The position numbers and the translations under genes were made by a program. 64,000 bases of DNA from Betaproteobacteria bacterium (lineage in GTDB: Bacteria > Pseudomonadota > Gammaproteobacteria > Burkholderiales > Rhodocyclaceae): the NCBI GenBank assembly GCA_020621405.1, contig JAHRYN010000001.1, positions 759,883-823,882 of the forward strand, in the 5' to 3' direction. Shown here piece by piece: positions 18,453-24,265 of this stretch (positions are counted from its first letter, which is position 1; the number at the start of each line of letters is the position of its first letter). The notes under the pieces were generated by a model. It made no database searches. It was not told where the DNA came from and saw only the letters and a program-made list of their open reading frames with translations.

Positions 18453-19121
18453 TCAATCCTGCGCAATCCGCAGCGCGGCCGCGCTGGCCAGCGGGCACAC
18501 GGCAAAAGCCACGAGCAGACAGGCGCCCAGCAGGGCCAGATGCGACTGCACACCCAGACCGGCACGCCAGGCATCGACCGCCCCGGCGCCGAAGATCAGC
18601 AGCGGCACGTAGAGCGGCAGCACCAGCAGCGCGATCAGTGCGCCACCACCGCGCAGGCCCAGCGTCAGCGACGCGCCGACCGCACCGAGCAGCGACAGCG
18701 TCGGCGTGCCGATCAGCAGCGTCGCGCACACGATCAGCGTTTCGTCCGGCGACAGGTTGAACTGCAGCGCGATCAGCGGTGCGATCACCACCAGCGGCAG
18801 CCCGGTCAGCAACCAGTAGGCGCACACCTTGGCCAGCACGATCACTGCCAGAGGCTCCACGGACAGCAACATCTGCTCGAGGGTTCCGTCGGCCTCGTCG
18901 GATTCGAACAGCCGCTGCACCGACAGCAGGGTCGCCAGCAGCGCGGCGACCCACATCACACCGGCCGCGATGCGGCTCAACTGGTCGGGTTCGGGTCCGA
19001 CACCGAGCGGGAACAGGCTGGTCACCAGCAGGAAGAAGCCGAGCGCGGTCAGCACGTCCGACCGCCTGCGCCAGGCCAGCAGCAGGTCGCGCCGCACCAC
19101 CGAAACGAATACGCTCAGCAT
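18453..19121 (-). CDS. ccmB: Haem exporter permease CcmB
   Basis: Membrane subunit of the CcmAB ABC complex. The 222-residue product starts MLSVFVSVVRRDLLLAWRRR and has six hydrophobic spans with the conserved VQRLFESDEADGTLEQMLLS region. It overlaps ccmA by 7 bases. The start at 19121 is where family similarity begins; the frame is open further upstream inside ccmA. Confidence 0.93.
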   Translation of the reverse strand: MLSVFVSVVRRDLLLAWRRRSDVLTALGFFLLVTSLFPLGVGPEPDQLSRIAAGVMWVAALLATLLSVQRLFESDEADGTLEQMLLSVEPLAVIVLAKVCAYWLLTGLPLVVIAPLIALQFNLSPDETLIVCATLLIGTPTLSLLGAVGASLTLGLRGGGALIALLVLPLYVPLLIFGAGAVDAWRAGLGVQSHLALLGACLLVAFAVCPLASAAALRIAQD

Positions 19122-19765
19122 GAGAAATCGTCCAGATTCAGCGTCTGTCGACGCAGCGCATCGATGTCGACCGGCTGATGCGTGGTGTAAATGATGGAAC
19201 CGCCGCGCGCCAGGTGCGCCGACATCGCACCGGCCAGCGTGGCGACCGCGCGCACGTCGAGCGCGGTGAAGGGCTCGTCCAGAATCCACAGCGCGCTGCG
19301 CGAGTCGGCCAGCAGCCGCGCCAGCGCCACGCGTCGGCGCTGTCCCTGCGACAGGCTGCGCGCCGGCACGTCGAGCCGCGCCCCCAGGCCGATATCGACC
19401 AGCGCCCGCAGCAGCGTGTCCTCCGGGGTGGTTTCGCCGGCGATGGCGGCGCTGGCGCGCAGGTTTTCCAGCGGCGTGAAATCGTCCTTCACCGCATTGC
19501 GGTGACCGAGATAGAGCAGGCCGTCGCGCCAGTCGTCAGACACGCGCCGGGCCGGCTCGCCACGCCAGCGCACCTCTCCCGATTCGGGTTCGGACAGTCC
19601 GCACAGAATGCGCAGCAGGCTGGTCTTGCCACTGCCGTTCGCACCGGCCACATGCATCAGTTCGCCGGGCGCCAGGGCGAAGTCGAGCCCGGAAAACAGG
19701 CGTGCACGGCCGCGCACGCAGGCAAGCGCACGCGCTTCGATCAGCGCAACGGCGGGTTCGGTCAT
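19115..19765 (-). CDS. ccmA: Haem exporter ATP-binding protein CcmA
   Basis: ATPase of the CcmAB complex that drives release of haem-loaded CcmE. The 216-residue product has Walker A (GANGSGKTS), the ABC signature (LSQGQRRRVALARLL) and Walker B (LWILDEPFTALD). It is the first gene of the ccmABCDEFGHI operon. The ATG at 19765 (MTEPAVAL) suits the family; the frame is open further upstream through a predicted small RNA terminator. Confidence 0.94.
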   Translation of the reverse strand: MTEPAVALIEARALACVRGRARLFSGLDFALAPGELMHVAGANGSGKTSLLRILCGLSEPESGEVRWRGEPARRVSDDWRDGLLYLGHRNAVKDDFTPLENLRASAAIAGETTPEDTLLRALVDIGLGARLDVPARSLSQGQRRRVALARLLADSRSALWILDEPFTALDVRAVATLAGAMSAHLARGGSIIYTTHQPVDIDALRRQTLNLDDFSC

Positions 19766-19859
19766 GCGGTGGCACGCAGGCGGGACAAGGCCGCGAATTA
19801 TCCTTGAAAGCGCCGGCCGGCGCAGCGCATCCGCAGGAAGCAAGGGATCGCTGCGCGAC

Positions 19860-19891
19860 AAAAAAGCGGCTCGCGATTGCTCGCGAGCCGC
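19860..19891 (-). terminator. Intrinsic terminator of the predicted small RNA
   Basis: A perfect 11-bp stem (GCGGCTCGCGA and its complement) with a 4-base loop gives six U residues on the minus strand only. No protein-coding gene on that strand lies upstream of it, which is what drew attention to the RNA. Confidence 0.8.
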
Positions 19892-19994
19892 CAAAAGAGC
19901 CGGTGCTGTCCGCTAGGCATGACCGGCTTCCCCATTGCAACCCTCTCGCAGCGGTGATCGAGGAGCCACCGAAACCACCGCTGCAGAGCTGGCA
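19860..19994 (-). ncRNA. Predicted sigma-54-dependent structured small RNA
   Basis: About 135 bases on the minus strand between a sigma-54 promoter (20005-20020) and an intrinsic terminator (19860-19891). The RNA would fold into three stems. The first is GCAGCGGTG with CACCGCTGC, whose loop exposes CUCCUC, complementary to ribosome binding sites. The second is AGCCGGU with ACCGGCU, and its loop contains a GGA. The third is the 11-bp terminator stem. No convincing protein is encoded. It diverges from an NtrC-type two-component system, recalling the CbrAB-CrcZ arrangement of pseudomonads, but I do not recognise the RNA sequence. It might instead be an attenuated leader of ccmA, whose start lies 95 bases beyond. 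Confidence 0.6.
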
Positions 19995-20004
19995 TGGAAT
20001 TCCT

Positions 20005-20020
20005 AGCAGGGCTTGTGCCA
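20005..20020 (-). promoter_or_regulatory. Sigma-54 promoter, minus strand
   Basis: On the minus strand the site reads TGGCACAAGCCCTGCT, with a perfect TGGCAC -24 element, a CTGCT -12 element and exactly 10 bases between GG and GC. Transcription would start near 19994. Confidence 0.65.
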
Positions 20021-20180
20021 ATCTCGAAAACAAAATACAAACCATTGATTACAAGATGCTTTACATTCCAGCATCAGCGCAAGCAGACGCTCGGCGTTGC
20101 AGCTTGCATCGCAATAGCTTGCATTCCGATTCCGAAATGCCGAATACCCGCATCAGCCATGCATTGACGCGATTGCGCCT

Positions 20181-20201
20181 TGCGTTGAAATCGGCAACGC
20201 A
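20181..20201. promoter_or_regulatory. Candidate activator-binding inverted repeat
   Basis: TGCGTTG and CAACGCA form a perfect inverted repeat with 7 bases between. It lies about 190 bases upstream of the predicted small RNA start and just before the kinase gene. Related half-sites (CGTTGCA, CCGTTGCAAC) occur around it. It could be the enhancer of the adjacent NtrC-type regulator, although it might lie within coding sequence if the kinase starts upstream at 20137. Confidence 0.35.
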
Positions 20202-20220
20202 CCGTTGCAACATGCAATTC

Positions 20221-21648
20221 ATGAAGCTGCTTCCGCGTTCCCTTCACGCCAAGATCCTGCTCGGCTACATCGTGCTCGGCGGCCTGTTCGTGCTGCTGGT
20301 GTTCGCTGCGCTGGAACAGGTGCGCAACCTGCTGTCGCGGGTCGACGACGAACATCACGTCACCAGCATGCACGACGTAATGCGCGAAGCACGACGGTTC
20401 GAGAAGAACTATCTGCTGCTGCGCAAGCCGTCGGAGCTGAAATCCGCGGTCGGCAAGGCGGACGAAGCGCTCGAAATGTTCACCCGTGACCGCGAACTGA
20501 TGCGCCGTGCCGCGCCCGGCTTCGCGCTCGACGAACTGGAGCAGTCGCTGTCCGACTGGCGCGACCTGCTGGAAGACCGCCTGCAGCGGCGCATCGAACC
20601 GACGGACCCGATTTCGCCGCTGGAAGAGCGCATGGCCGAGGTCGGCAAGCAGGCCTTCGAGGACAGCGAGCGGCTGTCGGACCAGGCGCGCGAGGCGATG
20701 CGGGGTGCGCTGTCCGGTCAGGAGTCGCGCCTGTACGCCATCATGCTCACCGCCATCGTGCTGGTACTGGGCATCGGCCAGCTGGTGACCCGACGCGTCG
20801 TGGCGCCGCTGCGTGAAATCGAAAGCGATCTGGCGCGGGTCGGCACCGGCAATCTGGCCCGCCTGACACCGCGCGACCGCGACGACGAGATCGCCGCATT
20901 GGTCGGCGCCTTCAACCGCGCGCTCGGCGACCTTGAAGAACGCCAGCTGGCGGTGCTGCGCAGCGCGCGGCTGGCGTCGCTCGGCACCATGCTGTCCGGC
21001 GTCGCGCACGAGCTGAACAATCCGCTTTCCAATATTTCGCTGAACGCCCAGCTGCTGCTCGAAGAGCCCGAGCGCGCCGATCCGGCGCAGCTCAATGCCT
21101 TCGTCGAACAGATCGACGATCAGGTGCAGCGCGCGCAGCGCATCGTGCGCACCCTGCTCGCCTTCGCGCGCGACAGCCATTTCGCGCTGGTGCGCCAGCC
21201 GGTGCGTCCGCTGGTCGAGGAAACCGTTGCGCTGCTGCGTGCCGAACAGCCGGACGTCGGCGAATCGGTGACGCTGCGCATCCCGCCCGATCTGGACATC
21301 CACGCCGACGGACAGCGCATGCAGCAGGCGCTGCTGAACCTCATCCGCAACGCGCTCGAGGCCTGCGCCGAGACGTCCACGAAGCCGCGCATCGTGGTGA
21401 GCGGTGCCATGCGCGACCGTGGCACGGTGATCGAGGTCAGCGACAACGGACCGGGCATCGCGCCGCGCAACCTGCAGCGCGTGTTCGACCCCTTCTTCAC
21501 CACCAAGCCGGTCGGCAAGGGCTCCGGGCTCGGGCTGTTCGTGGTGCATGAAATCACCGCCGAACATGGCGGACGGGTGAGCATAGACAACGGACCGGAC
21601 GGCGGGACACGCGTCACGCTGTGGATACCGGCGGAGGAGGAAGCATGA
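20221..21648 (+). CDS. Membrane sensor histidine kinase, HAMP type, partner of the NtrC-family regulator
   Basis: A 475-residue inner membrane kinase. Residues about 9-31 form the first membrane span, then an all-alpha periplasmic domain (about 32-175), a second span (about 178-197), a HAMP linker (RRVVAPLREIESDLARVGTGNLARL), the dimerisation domain with phosphate acceptor His263 (GVAHELNNPLSN) and an ATPase domain (NALEA, DNGPGIAP, GKGSGLGL). The start is uncertain: ATGs at 20137, 20212 and 20221 are all in frame and none has a good ribosome binding site. It overlaps the regulator gene by 4 bases. Confidence 0.88.
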   Translation: MKLLPRSLHAKILLGYIVLGGLFVLLVFAALEQVRNLLSRVDDEHHVTSMHDVMREARRFEKNYLLLRKPSELKSAVGKADEALEMFTRDRELMRRAAPGFALDELEQSLSDWRDLLEDRLQRRIEPTDPISPLEERMAEVGKQAFEDSERLSDQAREAMRGALSGQESRLYAIMLTAIVLVLGIGQLVTRRVVAPLREIESDLARVGTGNLARLTPRDRDDEIAALVGAFNRALGDLEERQLAVLRSARLASLGTMLSGVAHELNNPLSNISLNAQLLLEEPERADPAQLNAFVEQIDDQVQRAQRIVRTLLAFARDSHFALVRQPVRPLVEETVALLRAEQPDVGESVTLRIPPDLDIHADGQRMQQALLNLIRNALEACAETSTKPRIVVSGAMRDRGTVIEVSDNGPGIAPRNLQRVFDPFFTTKPVGKGSGLGLFVVHEITAEHGGRVSIDNGPDGGTRVTLWIPAEEEA

Positions 21649-23057
21649 GCGCACTGCACGTTCTGCTCGTCGACGACGAGGCGGTCGCCCGCGAGGGGCT
21701 GGCCACCGCGCTCCGGCGCGACGGCTTCGAGGTCACCACCGCCGACAACGGCGAAGCGGCGCTGGACCTGCTGCGCCAGCGCGAATTCGAGGTACTGCTG
21801 ACCGACGTGCGCATGCCCGGCATGGACGGCCTGGAACTGCTGCGCCGGGCGCGCGAGGCCTGGCCCGACATGGAGGTGCTGGTGGTGACCGGTTTCGCCA
21901 CCACCGAATCGGCGGTCGAGGCGATGCGTGCCGGCGCCTTCTACTACGTATCCAAGCCGTTCCGGCTGGGCGAGGTGCGCAAGCTGGTGCGCGAAGCCGC
22001 CGACAAGGCGCAGCTGCGCGCCGAGAACCACCGGCTGCGCCAGCTGGTCGAGCAGGCGGCCGAGGAACGCATCATCACGCGCGACGACGGCATGCGCGCC
22101 ATCCTGGACATCGCACGCGGCGTCGCCCCGACCGACTGCAATGTGCTCATCGTCGGTGAAACCGGCACCGGCAAGGAACTGCTGGCGCGCCACCTGCACG
22201 CGCACAGCCGGCGCGCCGGCGGCCCCTTCGTCGCGGTCAACTGCGGCGCGCTGACCGAAGAACTGCTGGCCAACGAACTGTTCGGCCACGAAAAGGGCGC
22301 CTACACCGGCGCACAGCAGGCGCGCGGCGGCCTGGTCGAGGCGGCACAGTGCGGCACGCTGTTCCTCGACGAAGTGACCGAAATGTCAGCCGCGATGCAG
22401 GTCAAGCTGCTGCGCCTGCTGCAGGAGCGCGAGTACCTGCGCGTCGGCGGCACCGAACCGGTACGCGCCGACGTGCGCTTCCTCGCCGCCACCAACCGCG
22501 AACCGCGCGCCGCGGTGGAAGCCGGCCAATTCAGACAGGACATCTATTTCCGGCTCAACGTGGTCACGCTGCAGTTGCCACCGCTGCGCGAGCGGCGCGA
22601 CGACATTCCGCTGCTGGCACAGCAGTTCCTGCGCCGCGCCGCACTCGCGATGGGCAAGGACGTCACCGCCATCGCCCCGCCGGCGATGGCAAAGCTGCGC
22701 GCCTATGACTATCCGGGCAATGTGCGCGAACTGGAAAACCTGATCGAACGCGGCGTCGCACTGGCTGGCGGCCCGATGCTGGGCGAAGCCGACCTGCCGC
22801 CGGGACTGTCGACGGCCGGCTCCGGCCGCGATGCATCGGGGCGCACCGGCGGCGAAATCCGCACGCTGGAAAACGTGGAACGCTCCTACATCCTCGACGT
22901 GCTGGCCGAAGTCGGCGGCAACCGCGCGCTGGCCGCCCGCCTGCTCGGCATCGACCGCGTGTCGCTGTGGCGCAAGCTGCGCCGCTACGAGGAGCAAGGG
23001 CTGATCGAAACCAGCGACACCGACGGCGCACTGCGCGCGCGCGACGTACCGGCCTGA
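21645..23057 (+). CDS. NtrC-family sigma-54-dependent response regulator
   Basis: A 470-residue activator with a receiver domain (phospho-acceptor Asp54 in LLTDVRMPGMDG, conserved Lys in VSKPF), a central AAA+ domain (Walker A GETGTGKE, sigma-54 contact loop GAYTGA, Walker B LFLDE) and a C-terminal Fis-type helix-turn-helix (NRALAARLLGIDRVSLWRKL). The GAYTGA loop shows that it can activate sigma-54 RNA polymerase. A strong ribosome binding site (GGAGGAGG) sits before an ATG overlapping the kinase stop. Likely targets in view are the divergent small RNA promoter and possibly those at 2683 and 23159. Confidence 0.95.
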   Translation: MSALHVLLVDDEAVAREGLATALRRDGFEVTTADNGEAALDLLRQREFEVLLTDVRMPGMDGLELLRRAREAWPDMEVLVVTGFATTESAVEAMRAGAFYYVSKPFRLGEVRKLVREAADKAQLRAENHRLRQLVEQAAEERIITRDDGMRAILDIARGVAPTDCNVLIVGETGTGKELLARHLHAHSRRAGGPFVAVNCGALTEELLANELFGHEKGAYTGAQQARGGLVEAAQCGTLFLDEVTEMSAAMQVKLLRLLQEREYLRVGGTEPVRADVRFLAATNREPRAAVEAGQFRQDIYFRLNVVTLQLPPLRERRDDIPLLAQQFLRRAALAMGKDVTAIAPPAMAKLRAYDYPGNVRELENLIERGVALAGGPMLGEADLPPGLSTAGSGRDASGRTGGEIRTLENVERSYILDVLAEVGGNRALAARLLGIDRVSLWRKLRRYEEQGLIETSDTDGALRARDVPA

Positions 23058-23188: not shown

Positions 23189-23959
23189 ATGCAGCTGCCC
23201 ACCACACCCAAAGCCCTGCTGATCGATCTCGCCGGCGTACTGCACGTCGGCGACCAGATCGTTCCCGGCGCGGCTGACGCGCTGGCCCGGCTGCGCGCGG
23301 CCGGCCTGCCGCTGCTGTTCCTGACCAACACCACGCGCACGCCGCGCCGCGTGCTGTGCGCAAAGATGAATGCGCTCGGGCTGGTCATGCGCGACGACGA
23401 ACTGCTCACCGCCCCCGGCGCGACGATGAATCTGGTGCGTGCCCGCGGCCTGCATCCGTACTACATCGTGCATCCGGACCTGCGCGGGGAAACCGGGCCC
23501 GACGCCGCATCGCCCGACGCCGTGGTGCTGGGCGACGCCGGCCACTTCTTCGACTACGCACAGCTCAACACCGCTTTCCGGCTGATCATGCAGGGCCTGC
23601 CCTTCATCGCGATGGCGCGCAATCGCTACTTCAAGGAGGAGGACGGCCTGTCGCTCGACATGGGCGCCTTCGTCGCCGGGCTGGAATACAGCACCGGCAC
23701 GCAGGCCGAAATCACCGGCAAACCGGCCGCCCCCTTCTTCCAGGCCGCGCTCGACATGCTGGGCGTCGCTGCGGCCGATGCCGTCATGATCGGCGACGAC
23801 CTGCGCGACGACATCGGCGGCGCCCAGGCCCTCGGCATCCCGTCGGTACTGGTACGCACCGGCAAATACGCGCCCGCCGACGAACACCATCCCGACATCC
23901 GCCCGGCCGCCATCGCCGACGACTTCGCCACCTTCACATCACGCCACCTGCACCTGTAG
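23189..23959 (+). CDS. HAD superfamily (class IIA) phosphatase, LHPP-like
   Basis: A 256-residue cytoplasmic hydrolase. Motif I is DLAGVL (Asp13 nucleophile region), motif II is the LTNTTRTP segment, and the C-terminal part has the ITGKPA lysine motif and VMIGDDLRDDIGGAQ, all typical of class IIA HAD enzymes related to phospholysine/phosphohistidine pyrophosphatases. In motif I the usual second Asp (DxDGVL) is replaced: the sequence reads DLAGVL, so it may be less active as a phosphatase. The TAG stop is the second to fourth base of a repeat element (GTAGGAGC). Confidence 0.85.
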   Translation: MQLPTTPKALLIDLAGVLHVGDQIVPGAADALARLRAAGLPLLFLTNTTRTPRRVLCAKMNALGLVMRDDELLTAPGATMNLVRARGLHPYYIVHPDLRGETGPDAASPDAVVLGDAGHFFDYAQLNTAFRLIMQGLPFIAMARNRYFKEEDGLSLDMGAFVAGLEYSTGTQAEITGKPAAPFFQAALDMLGVAAADAVMIGDDLRDDIGGAQALGIPSVLVRTGKYAPADEHHPDIRPAAIADDFATFTSRHLHL

Positions 23960-24265
23960 GAGCGAGCCATGCTCGCGAAAACCCACGTTGATCATCGTCC
24001 CGCGCTGCCCCACGACCACATCGCGACCGTGGGTCGCTCCTACAGAACAGCGCAGTACGTCCCCTGTAGGAGCGACCCATGGTCGCGAAAACCCACGTTG
24101 ATCATCGTCCCGCGCTGCCCCGCGACCGCATCGCGACCACGGGTCGCTCCTACGGAAACAGCGCCGCCTCCTCCTGTAGGAGCGAGCCATGCTCGCGAAA
24201 ACCCACGTTGATCATTGTCCAGCGCTGCCCCGCGACCGCATCGCGACCACGGCTCGCTCCTGCAG
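23956..24265. repeat. REP/BIME-like repeat array A (three units)
   Basis: Three units of about 90 bases (23956-24045, 24066-24154, 24176-24265), spaced about 110 apart. Each begins GTAGGAGCGA(G/C)CCATG(G/C)TCGCGA, has a conserved middle with CCCACGTTGATCAT, and ends in the inverted sequence (GGGTCGCTCCTAC or close). The 5' end forms the stop codon of the HAD gene. Related arrays are at 28473, 33651 and 40298. The terminal motif resembles pseudomonad REP sequences. No REP-associated transposase is in the window. Confidence 0.9.

Follow-up and report, generated by a model that had tools for sequence, protein, structure and literature searches.

The window, the whole stretch of 64,000 nucleotides of DNA that was analysed, contains on its minus strand a sigma-54 small RNA gene that is conserved and has apparently not been described before; judging from its sequence and surroundings, it is paired with its likely activator, the regulator of a divergently transcribed two-component system. 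In the genus to which the window belongs, the short structured RNA is probably the conserved neighbouring output of this two-component system and acts in trans. That it is a regulated, stand-alone RNA is the part of this reading that may be considered quite likely. The proposed RNA, of about 135 nt, extends on the minus strand from 19994 to 19860, from its predicted start to a U tract, and is recognised by its fold and its conservation. The gene downstream of it on the same strand, ccmA (19115-19765, minus strand; TIGR01189 and PRK13538 above cut-off), probably lies outside the RNA unit.

When 61 genomes were searched at the DNA level, the region was recovered from 12 of the 13 genus genomes, with 74-100% identity, and the covariance search that the initial annotation had proposed gave the same result for the RNA, with promoter, fold and loop conserved. 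The sequence of the thirteenth genome (G009) includes no more than the end of the kinase gene, and the contig stops there. Non-conservation, which had been named beforehand as evidence against a regulator-RNA pair, was not observed: both promoter and stems are conserved in the genus. Two weak DNA-search matches outside the genus were inspected and looked like chance.

Control region and regulatory genes

The minus-strand sigma-54 promoter claimed by the initial annotation was located at 20020-20005, where TGGCACAAGCCCTGCT matches the -24/-12 consensus; TGGCACAN4CTGCT is conserved at all 12 genus loci. Nowhere else in the window is TGGCAYRNNNNYTGCW matched exactly, with 0.25 matches expected, but at least one such match is found in 24 of 100 shuffles of the window, so the pattern match by itself is not decisive. 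Mean pairwise identity in the genus is 88% in the promoter and 58% in the spacer just upstream of it. The start of the RNA at about 19994 is predicted from the spacing of the -24/-12 elements.

Enhancer-like sites are conserved upstream of the promoter, and binding to them is predicted. The distal site, TTGCATGTTGCAA (20205-20217, minus strand), adjoins the start of the kinase gene and matches TTGCANNNTGCAA at ten of ten positions, and the proximal site, ATGCAAGCTGCAA (20097-20109, minus strand), recognised by the same pattern, matches it at nine of ten; their mean pairwise identities in the genus are 86% and 82%, respectively. With at most one mismatch, TTGCANNNTGCAA has three matches in the whole window versus 2.0 expected, so the motif is persuasive only by its position and conservation. 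Between the proximal enhancer and the promoter, AATCAATGGTTTG (20038-20050, minus strand) is a perfect match to the IHF consensus. An IHF site is predicted at 11 of the 12 genus loci and in 0.6% of mononucleotide shuffles; outside the genus it is rare (5 of 46 loci). A search of the genus for one pattern of enhancer-promoter spacing gave 28 matches, compared with seven for the reversed control; twelve are the present site, once per genome in 12 of the 13 genomes, and the other 16 are spread over nine genus genomes and include two recurring sequences (in three and two genomes) that are inside long open frames.

Both genes of the divergent two-component system are on the plus strand, and the domains expected from the initial annotation, a kinase and a regulator with GAYTGA, were confirmed. 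The sensor histidine kinase (20221-21648) has HAMP, HisKA and HATPase_c domains, with HELNNP at residue 263. The response regulator (21648-23057), of NtrC type, has 469 residues that form receiver, AAA+ and Fis-type domains (Response_reg, Sigma54_activat, HTH_8), with GAYTGA at residue 217. It falls below the curated cut-offs of the AtoC, NtrC, ZraR, GlrR and LuxO models, and is therefore described as an NtrC-type regulator without a named subfamily; the solved structures related to it include NtrC-type regulators and LuxO. Elsewhere in the window, at 23942-24265, a 104-nt repeat occurs three times in tandem with a spacing of 110, its copies being 85-89% identical to the first; it is rich in inverted repeats and is flanked by genes for a HAD-type hydrolase and for a protein that by eye is cyanase-like.

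In the circuit proposed for these elements, the kinase would phosphorylate the regulator, the phosphorylated regulator would bind the two TTGCANNNTGCAA enhancer sites, IHF would bend the DNA at its predicted site, and sigma-54 polymerase would initiate at about 19994, with termination at the hairpin freeing an RNA of about 135 nt.

Fold, conservation and predicted action of the RNA

Three hairpins with the same layout are predicted in the folds of all 12 genus loci: a stem-loop 1 domain that includes a closing helix (19936-19994), hairpin 2 (19894-19933) and an intrinsic terminator made up of the third hairpin and the U tract (19860-19892), all on the minus strand. The structured RNA of about 135 bases ending in a terminator that the initial annotation had proposed is borne out, as a 137-nt stretch has a folding energy of -74.3 kcal/mol (z -4.46) that none of 200 shuffles equalled and the terminator was detected at all 12 genus loci. 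The accompanying description of three strong stems followed by a terminator has to be amended, because the terminator stem is itself the third. This stem comprises 12 pairs at 19892-19865, followed by TTTTT, and is the one terminator-like site in a scan of 19700-20240; since shuffles average 0.9 such sites, the site alone is no evidence. Loop 1 contains GGCUCC (19962-19967, minus strand), a candidate seed that is invariant at all 12 genus loci, and overlapping it CUCCUC (19965-19960, minus strand), which had been thought to be exposed. CUCCUC does sit in loop 1, but its last two bases are weakly paired in the consensus fold, in which GGCUCC is open. GGCUCC is unpaired in the folds of 11 of the 12 loci, and in the best fold of the window itself its last two C are paired with two G.

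In a covariation alignment of ten distinct rows, 99.5% of the alignment cells are paired and both-side changes occur at seven pairs, versus 3.3 in shuffles; all seven pairs fall within the main helix of stem 1. When the partners were slid as a control, paired cells dropped to 34-50% and changed pairs to 1-4. There is hardly any variation in hairpin 2 or in the terminator, so the covariation test does not touch them. Mean pairwise identity is 72% in the stem-1 domain, 89% in the linker and hairpin 2, and 89% in the terminator; right past the terminator it is 36%. The statement that no protein is encoded on the RNA strand holds with a qualification: open frames exist there, but not one of them stays in frame throughout the genus. 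A hidden peptide was considered on account of a conserved ATG at +59 to +61 and rejected, as indels shift the frame between two subclades and the genus loci have no common stop codon. Given the covariation, the sharp edges of identity and the shifting frame, the unit is most likely under selection as a non-coding RNA.

The RNA would most likely be trans-acting, probably by pairing with mRNA through its stem-1 loop, in which GGCUCC is invariant; on its own, such base pairing through loop 1 is a possibility a little short of even. Target sites were sought as the 9-mer CGAGGAGCC, which is complementary to loop 1, ahead of start codons in six genomes. The search gave 42 rows (of which 30 were examined) versus 32 for the reversed control, and no conserved target in the six genomes. 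Open frames of at least 60 codons common to genomes formed two groups, both of which extend in frame upstream, placing the site inside the gene. Possible true gene starts follow CGAGGAGCC at three loci (L254, L271 and L273), each in one genome only. The last of these, L273, belongs to the genome of the window itself (near 23648 of contig C9), and there CGAGGAGCC lies right before the start of what by eye resembles a PilZ-type protein. Thus, of the unrecognised regulator-RNA pair put forward in the initial annotation, the structured and apparently non-coding RNA and its conserved sigma-54 promoter stand, joined by the enhancer and IHF sites, which that annotation had left unmentioned, but the idea that CUCCUC pairs with ribosome binding sites finds no support, the loop being conserved without a conserved target in six genomes.

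An action as a protein decoy like GlmY would be less likely than base pairing. The strong structure of the RNA, with its several hairpins, would suit a protein-binding decoy, either of RapZ in the manner of GlmY or of CsrA in the manner of CsrA-titrating RNAs, but such a function is considered unlikely. Titration of CsrA was rejected because motifs are too few: each of the 12 RNAs has just two or three GGA and zero ANGGA, the CsrA-binding motif.

Related kinase loci in other genera

Relatives of the sensor region of the kinase were found in 35 of 199 family genomes (E ≤1e-8) and in 27 of 399 order genomes (E ≤1e-12); of the 63 distinct places found, 57 kinase loci from 26 genera were examined. 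A kinase search of genome contigs gave at most 41% identity among the matches listed (80 loci), all matches in a plasmid search with the kinase were below 60% identity, and a phage search with the RNA found nothing. In Thauera sp. MAG.443 (L080) the matches were either partial, at about 70% identity, or short, and the RNA had none. A divergent sigma-54 site scoring at least 13 is present at 52 of the 57 loci (25 genera) and in 6% of mononucleotide shuffles. With a score of at least 14 it is present at 49 of 57 loci and in 0.9% of mononucleotide shuffles, and the kinase strand has none (0 of 57). An enhancer matching at nine or ten of ten positions is present at 55 of 57 loci (26 genera) and in 0.8% of shuffles. 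The five loci without the promoter (L134, L136, L138, L139 and L142) all belong to genus g182, whose kinase relatives retain the enhancer site; their output may lie elsewhere.

After the promoter, a short RNA-like stretch with a hairpin and a T-rich run is found in five genera: the present genus (six loci), g174 (two), g162 (two), g188 (three) and g5 (one). The RNA end at L133 was called by eye, as the terminator rule of the script did not flag it, and a possible terminator at L204 was left out of the RNA loci because hallmarks of UspA-like and SulP proteins come after it. Where the promoter is present without an RNA, coding hallmarks follow at 35 of 38 loci, by motifs that were defined after some of the scored loci had been seen: a sulfate permease at 20, an AFANVGN-like small protein at 17, a UspA-like protein at 11 and DUF599 at six. 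In Pfam, single examples of the permease and of DUF599 match PF00916 and PF04654, respectively; one small-protein example and one UspA-like example have no match, "UspA-like" being a descriptive name given in this analysis and not one based on Pfam. AFANVGN-like small proteins are directly after the divergent promoter at L147, L153, L198, L207, L211, L216, L217, L218, L220 and others.

The RNAs of the different genera may belong to separate families. Those of g188 and g162 are about 70-75 nt long and share the core UCGGYGCGGACAACMAGGAGAUUC and a terminator (L141:2410-2485, L143:1216-1291, L144:2409-2484, L137:1191-1263 and L140:2461-2536). In the present genus, GCGGACAGC or its U variant GCGGACAGU occurs at seven of the 12 loci, and the remainder have other versions. 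Of two RNA models, R1 built from the present genus and R2 from the five loci of g188 and g162, neither recognises the RNAs of the other group above noise, which is why the RNAs may not be one family. In 300 order genomes (E ≤0.1), R1 found its own RNAs and 15 weak matches, with matches in about 30 genomes expected by chance; in 199 family genomes (E ≤0.05) it found six genus genomes and seven weak matches, with about ten expected by chance. R2 recovered its five source loci with E of 1.4e-15 or better, and in the 199 family genomes (E ≤0.05) it matched 43 genomes, weak matches included, versus about ten expected, the E-values being rough.

Taken together, the loci raise the possibility that the sensor, sigma-54 promoter and enhancer sites of an old two-component system have been kept in many genera of this order and that its output has been swapped from a protein operon (with small-protein, UspA-like, SulP or DUF599 genes) to a small regulatory RNA, possibly repeatedly and with unrelated RNAs; this is offered as speculation, with the chances somewhat against it. 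A comparison of the genera that have RNAs with those that have transporter operons could show RNAs taking over an existing circuit. The coding hallmarks at 35 of the 38 other loci that lack an RNA would also fit a non-functional remnant, in which a former coding operon was lost and its promoter and terminator were left behind. Such a remnant is very improbable for the present RNA, as the covariation and the sharp edges of conservation mark the RNA itself as the object of selection.

The neighbours of the RNAs bear on another explanation, which the initial annotation had regarded as the main alternative: an attenuated leader of the ccm genes, in which a sigma-54 transcript normally terminates and reads into ccmA upon a signal. 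Read-through into ccmA is possible because ccmA lies downstream on the same strand at all 12 genus loci; a weak scan found no sigma-70 promoter between the terminator and ccmA; and the RNA of g162 also precedes a same-strand gene, which starts 120 nt (L137) or 177 nt (L140) past the predicted RNA start. However, a long antiterminator was not found, as no upstream segment pairs over more than eight consecutive base pairs, G-T included, with either arm of the terminator at any of the 12 loci, and the stretch from terminator to ccmA is the least conserved (36-43% identity). In addition, tblastn found ccmA absent from all eight loci of other genera with a comparable RNA (with downstream sequence of about 1.2-1.3 kb at each). 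In these genera the neighbour at L133 is a convergent tRNA-Arg and the one at L137 a Na/H exchanger (PF00999 in Pfam). Inspection by eye suggests such an exchanger at L140 as well, a RuvB-like gene in convergent orientation at L141 and L143, and an OmpA-like gene at L145. Since comparable RNAs elsewhere have other neighbours, a ccm leader is distinctly unlikely, and a stand-alone RNA under the control of the divergent two-component system is the preferred reading.

Comparison with known systems

Rfam, which includes the Qrr, CrcZ and GlmY families, has no match to the RNA at gathering score, and none of these three families is among its matches with E up to 1. Membership in a known RNA family was rejected, as all Rfam matches are sub-threshold. 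One of these, to BjrC68 (RF02353), covers hairpin 2 and the terminator with 27.1 bits, and a similar match was obtained at two of four genus loci searched, but the gathering score of 39 is not reached and the alignments are judged to share mainly the shape of hairpin and terminator. No report of this RNA was found in a literature search that covered open-licence papers and consisted partly of searches on named known systems.

The initial annotation had drawn a comparison with CbrAB and CrcZ. The likeness is of the regulator-RNA pair, in that the same kind of regulator activates a neighbouring sigma-54 RNA (PMC6292655), but CrcZ is an analogue only, with no match to its family. The crcZ gene is downstream of cbrB, whereas the present RNA is divergent from the kinase. 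The CA-rich motif of CrcZ, AAYAAYAA, is absent from all 12 present RNAs, as the initial annotation had remarked of the one in the window.

LuxO-Qrr1 and QseEF-GlmY are closer analogues than CbrAB-CrcZ. QseE/QseF and GlmY resemble the present system in having an adjacent two-component system, a structured sigma-54 RNA, and upstream sites together with IHF, but the enterobacterial enhancer consensus is different (TGTN12ACA; both from PMC6075780). The glmY gene precedes qseE, with which it shares an operon in Proteus (PMC8745638), and is not divergent from it. The present regulator scores 351 versus a cut-off of 763 with the GlrR model. The layout recalls glmY beside qseEGF (PMC6075780), and GlmY is a decoy for RapZ (PMC7073468), but the absence of GlmY from the Rfam matches mentioned above weighs against a decoy of this type.

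LuxO and Qrr1 share with the present system an NtrC-type regulator and a neighbouring sigma-54 RNA gene. According to PMC10162802 and PMC11443567, each qrr gene of Vibrio has one or two enhancer sites, and the enhancer (LuxO box) is TTGCAW3TGCAA, which resembles the present enhancer sites except that their central three bases are not always A or T. Unlike LuxO, the present regulator falls short of the LuxO model (NF041946; 322.4 versus a cut-off of 800), and unlike in the LuxO-Qrr1 system, a HAMP kinase adjoins the regulator in the present locus. Among sigma-54 RNAs that are wired to neighbouring regulators, of which these are examples, the present RNA would add a family without a name, in an arrangement that offers a ready genetic test.
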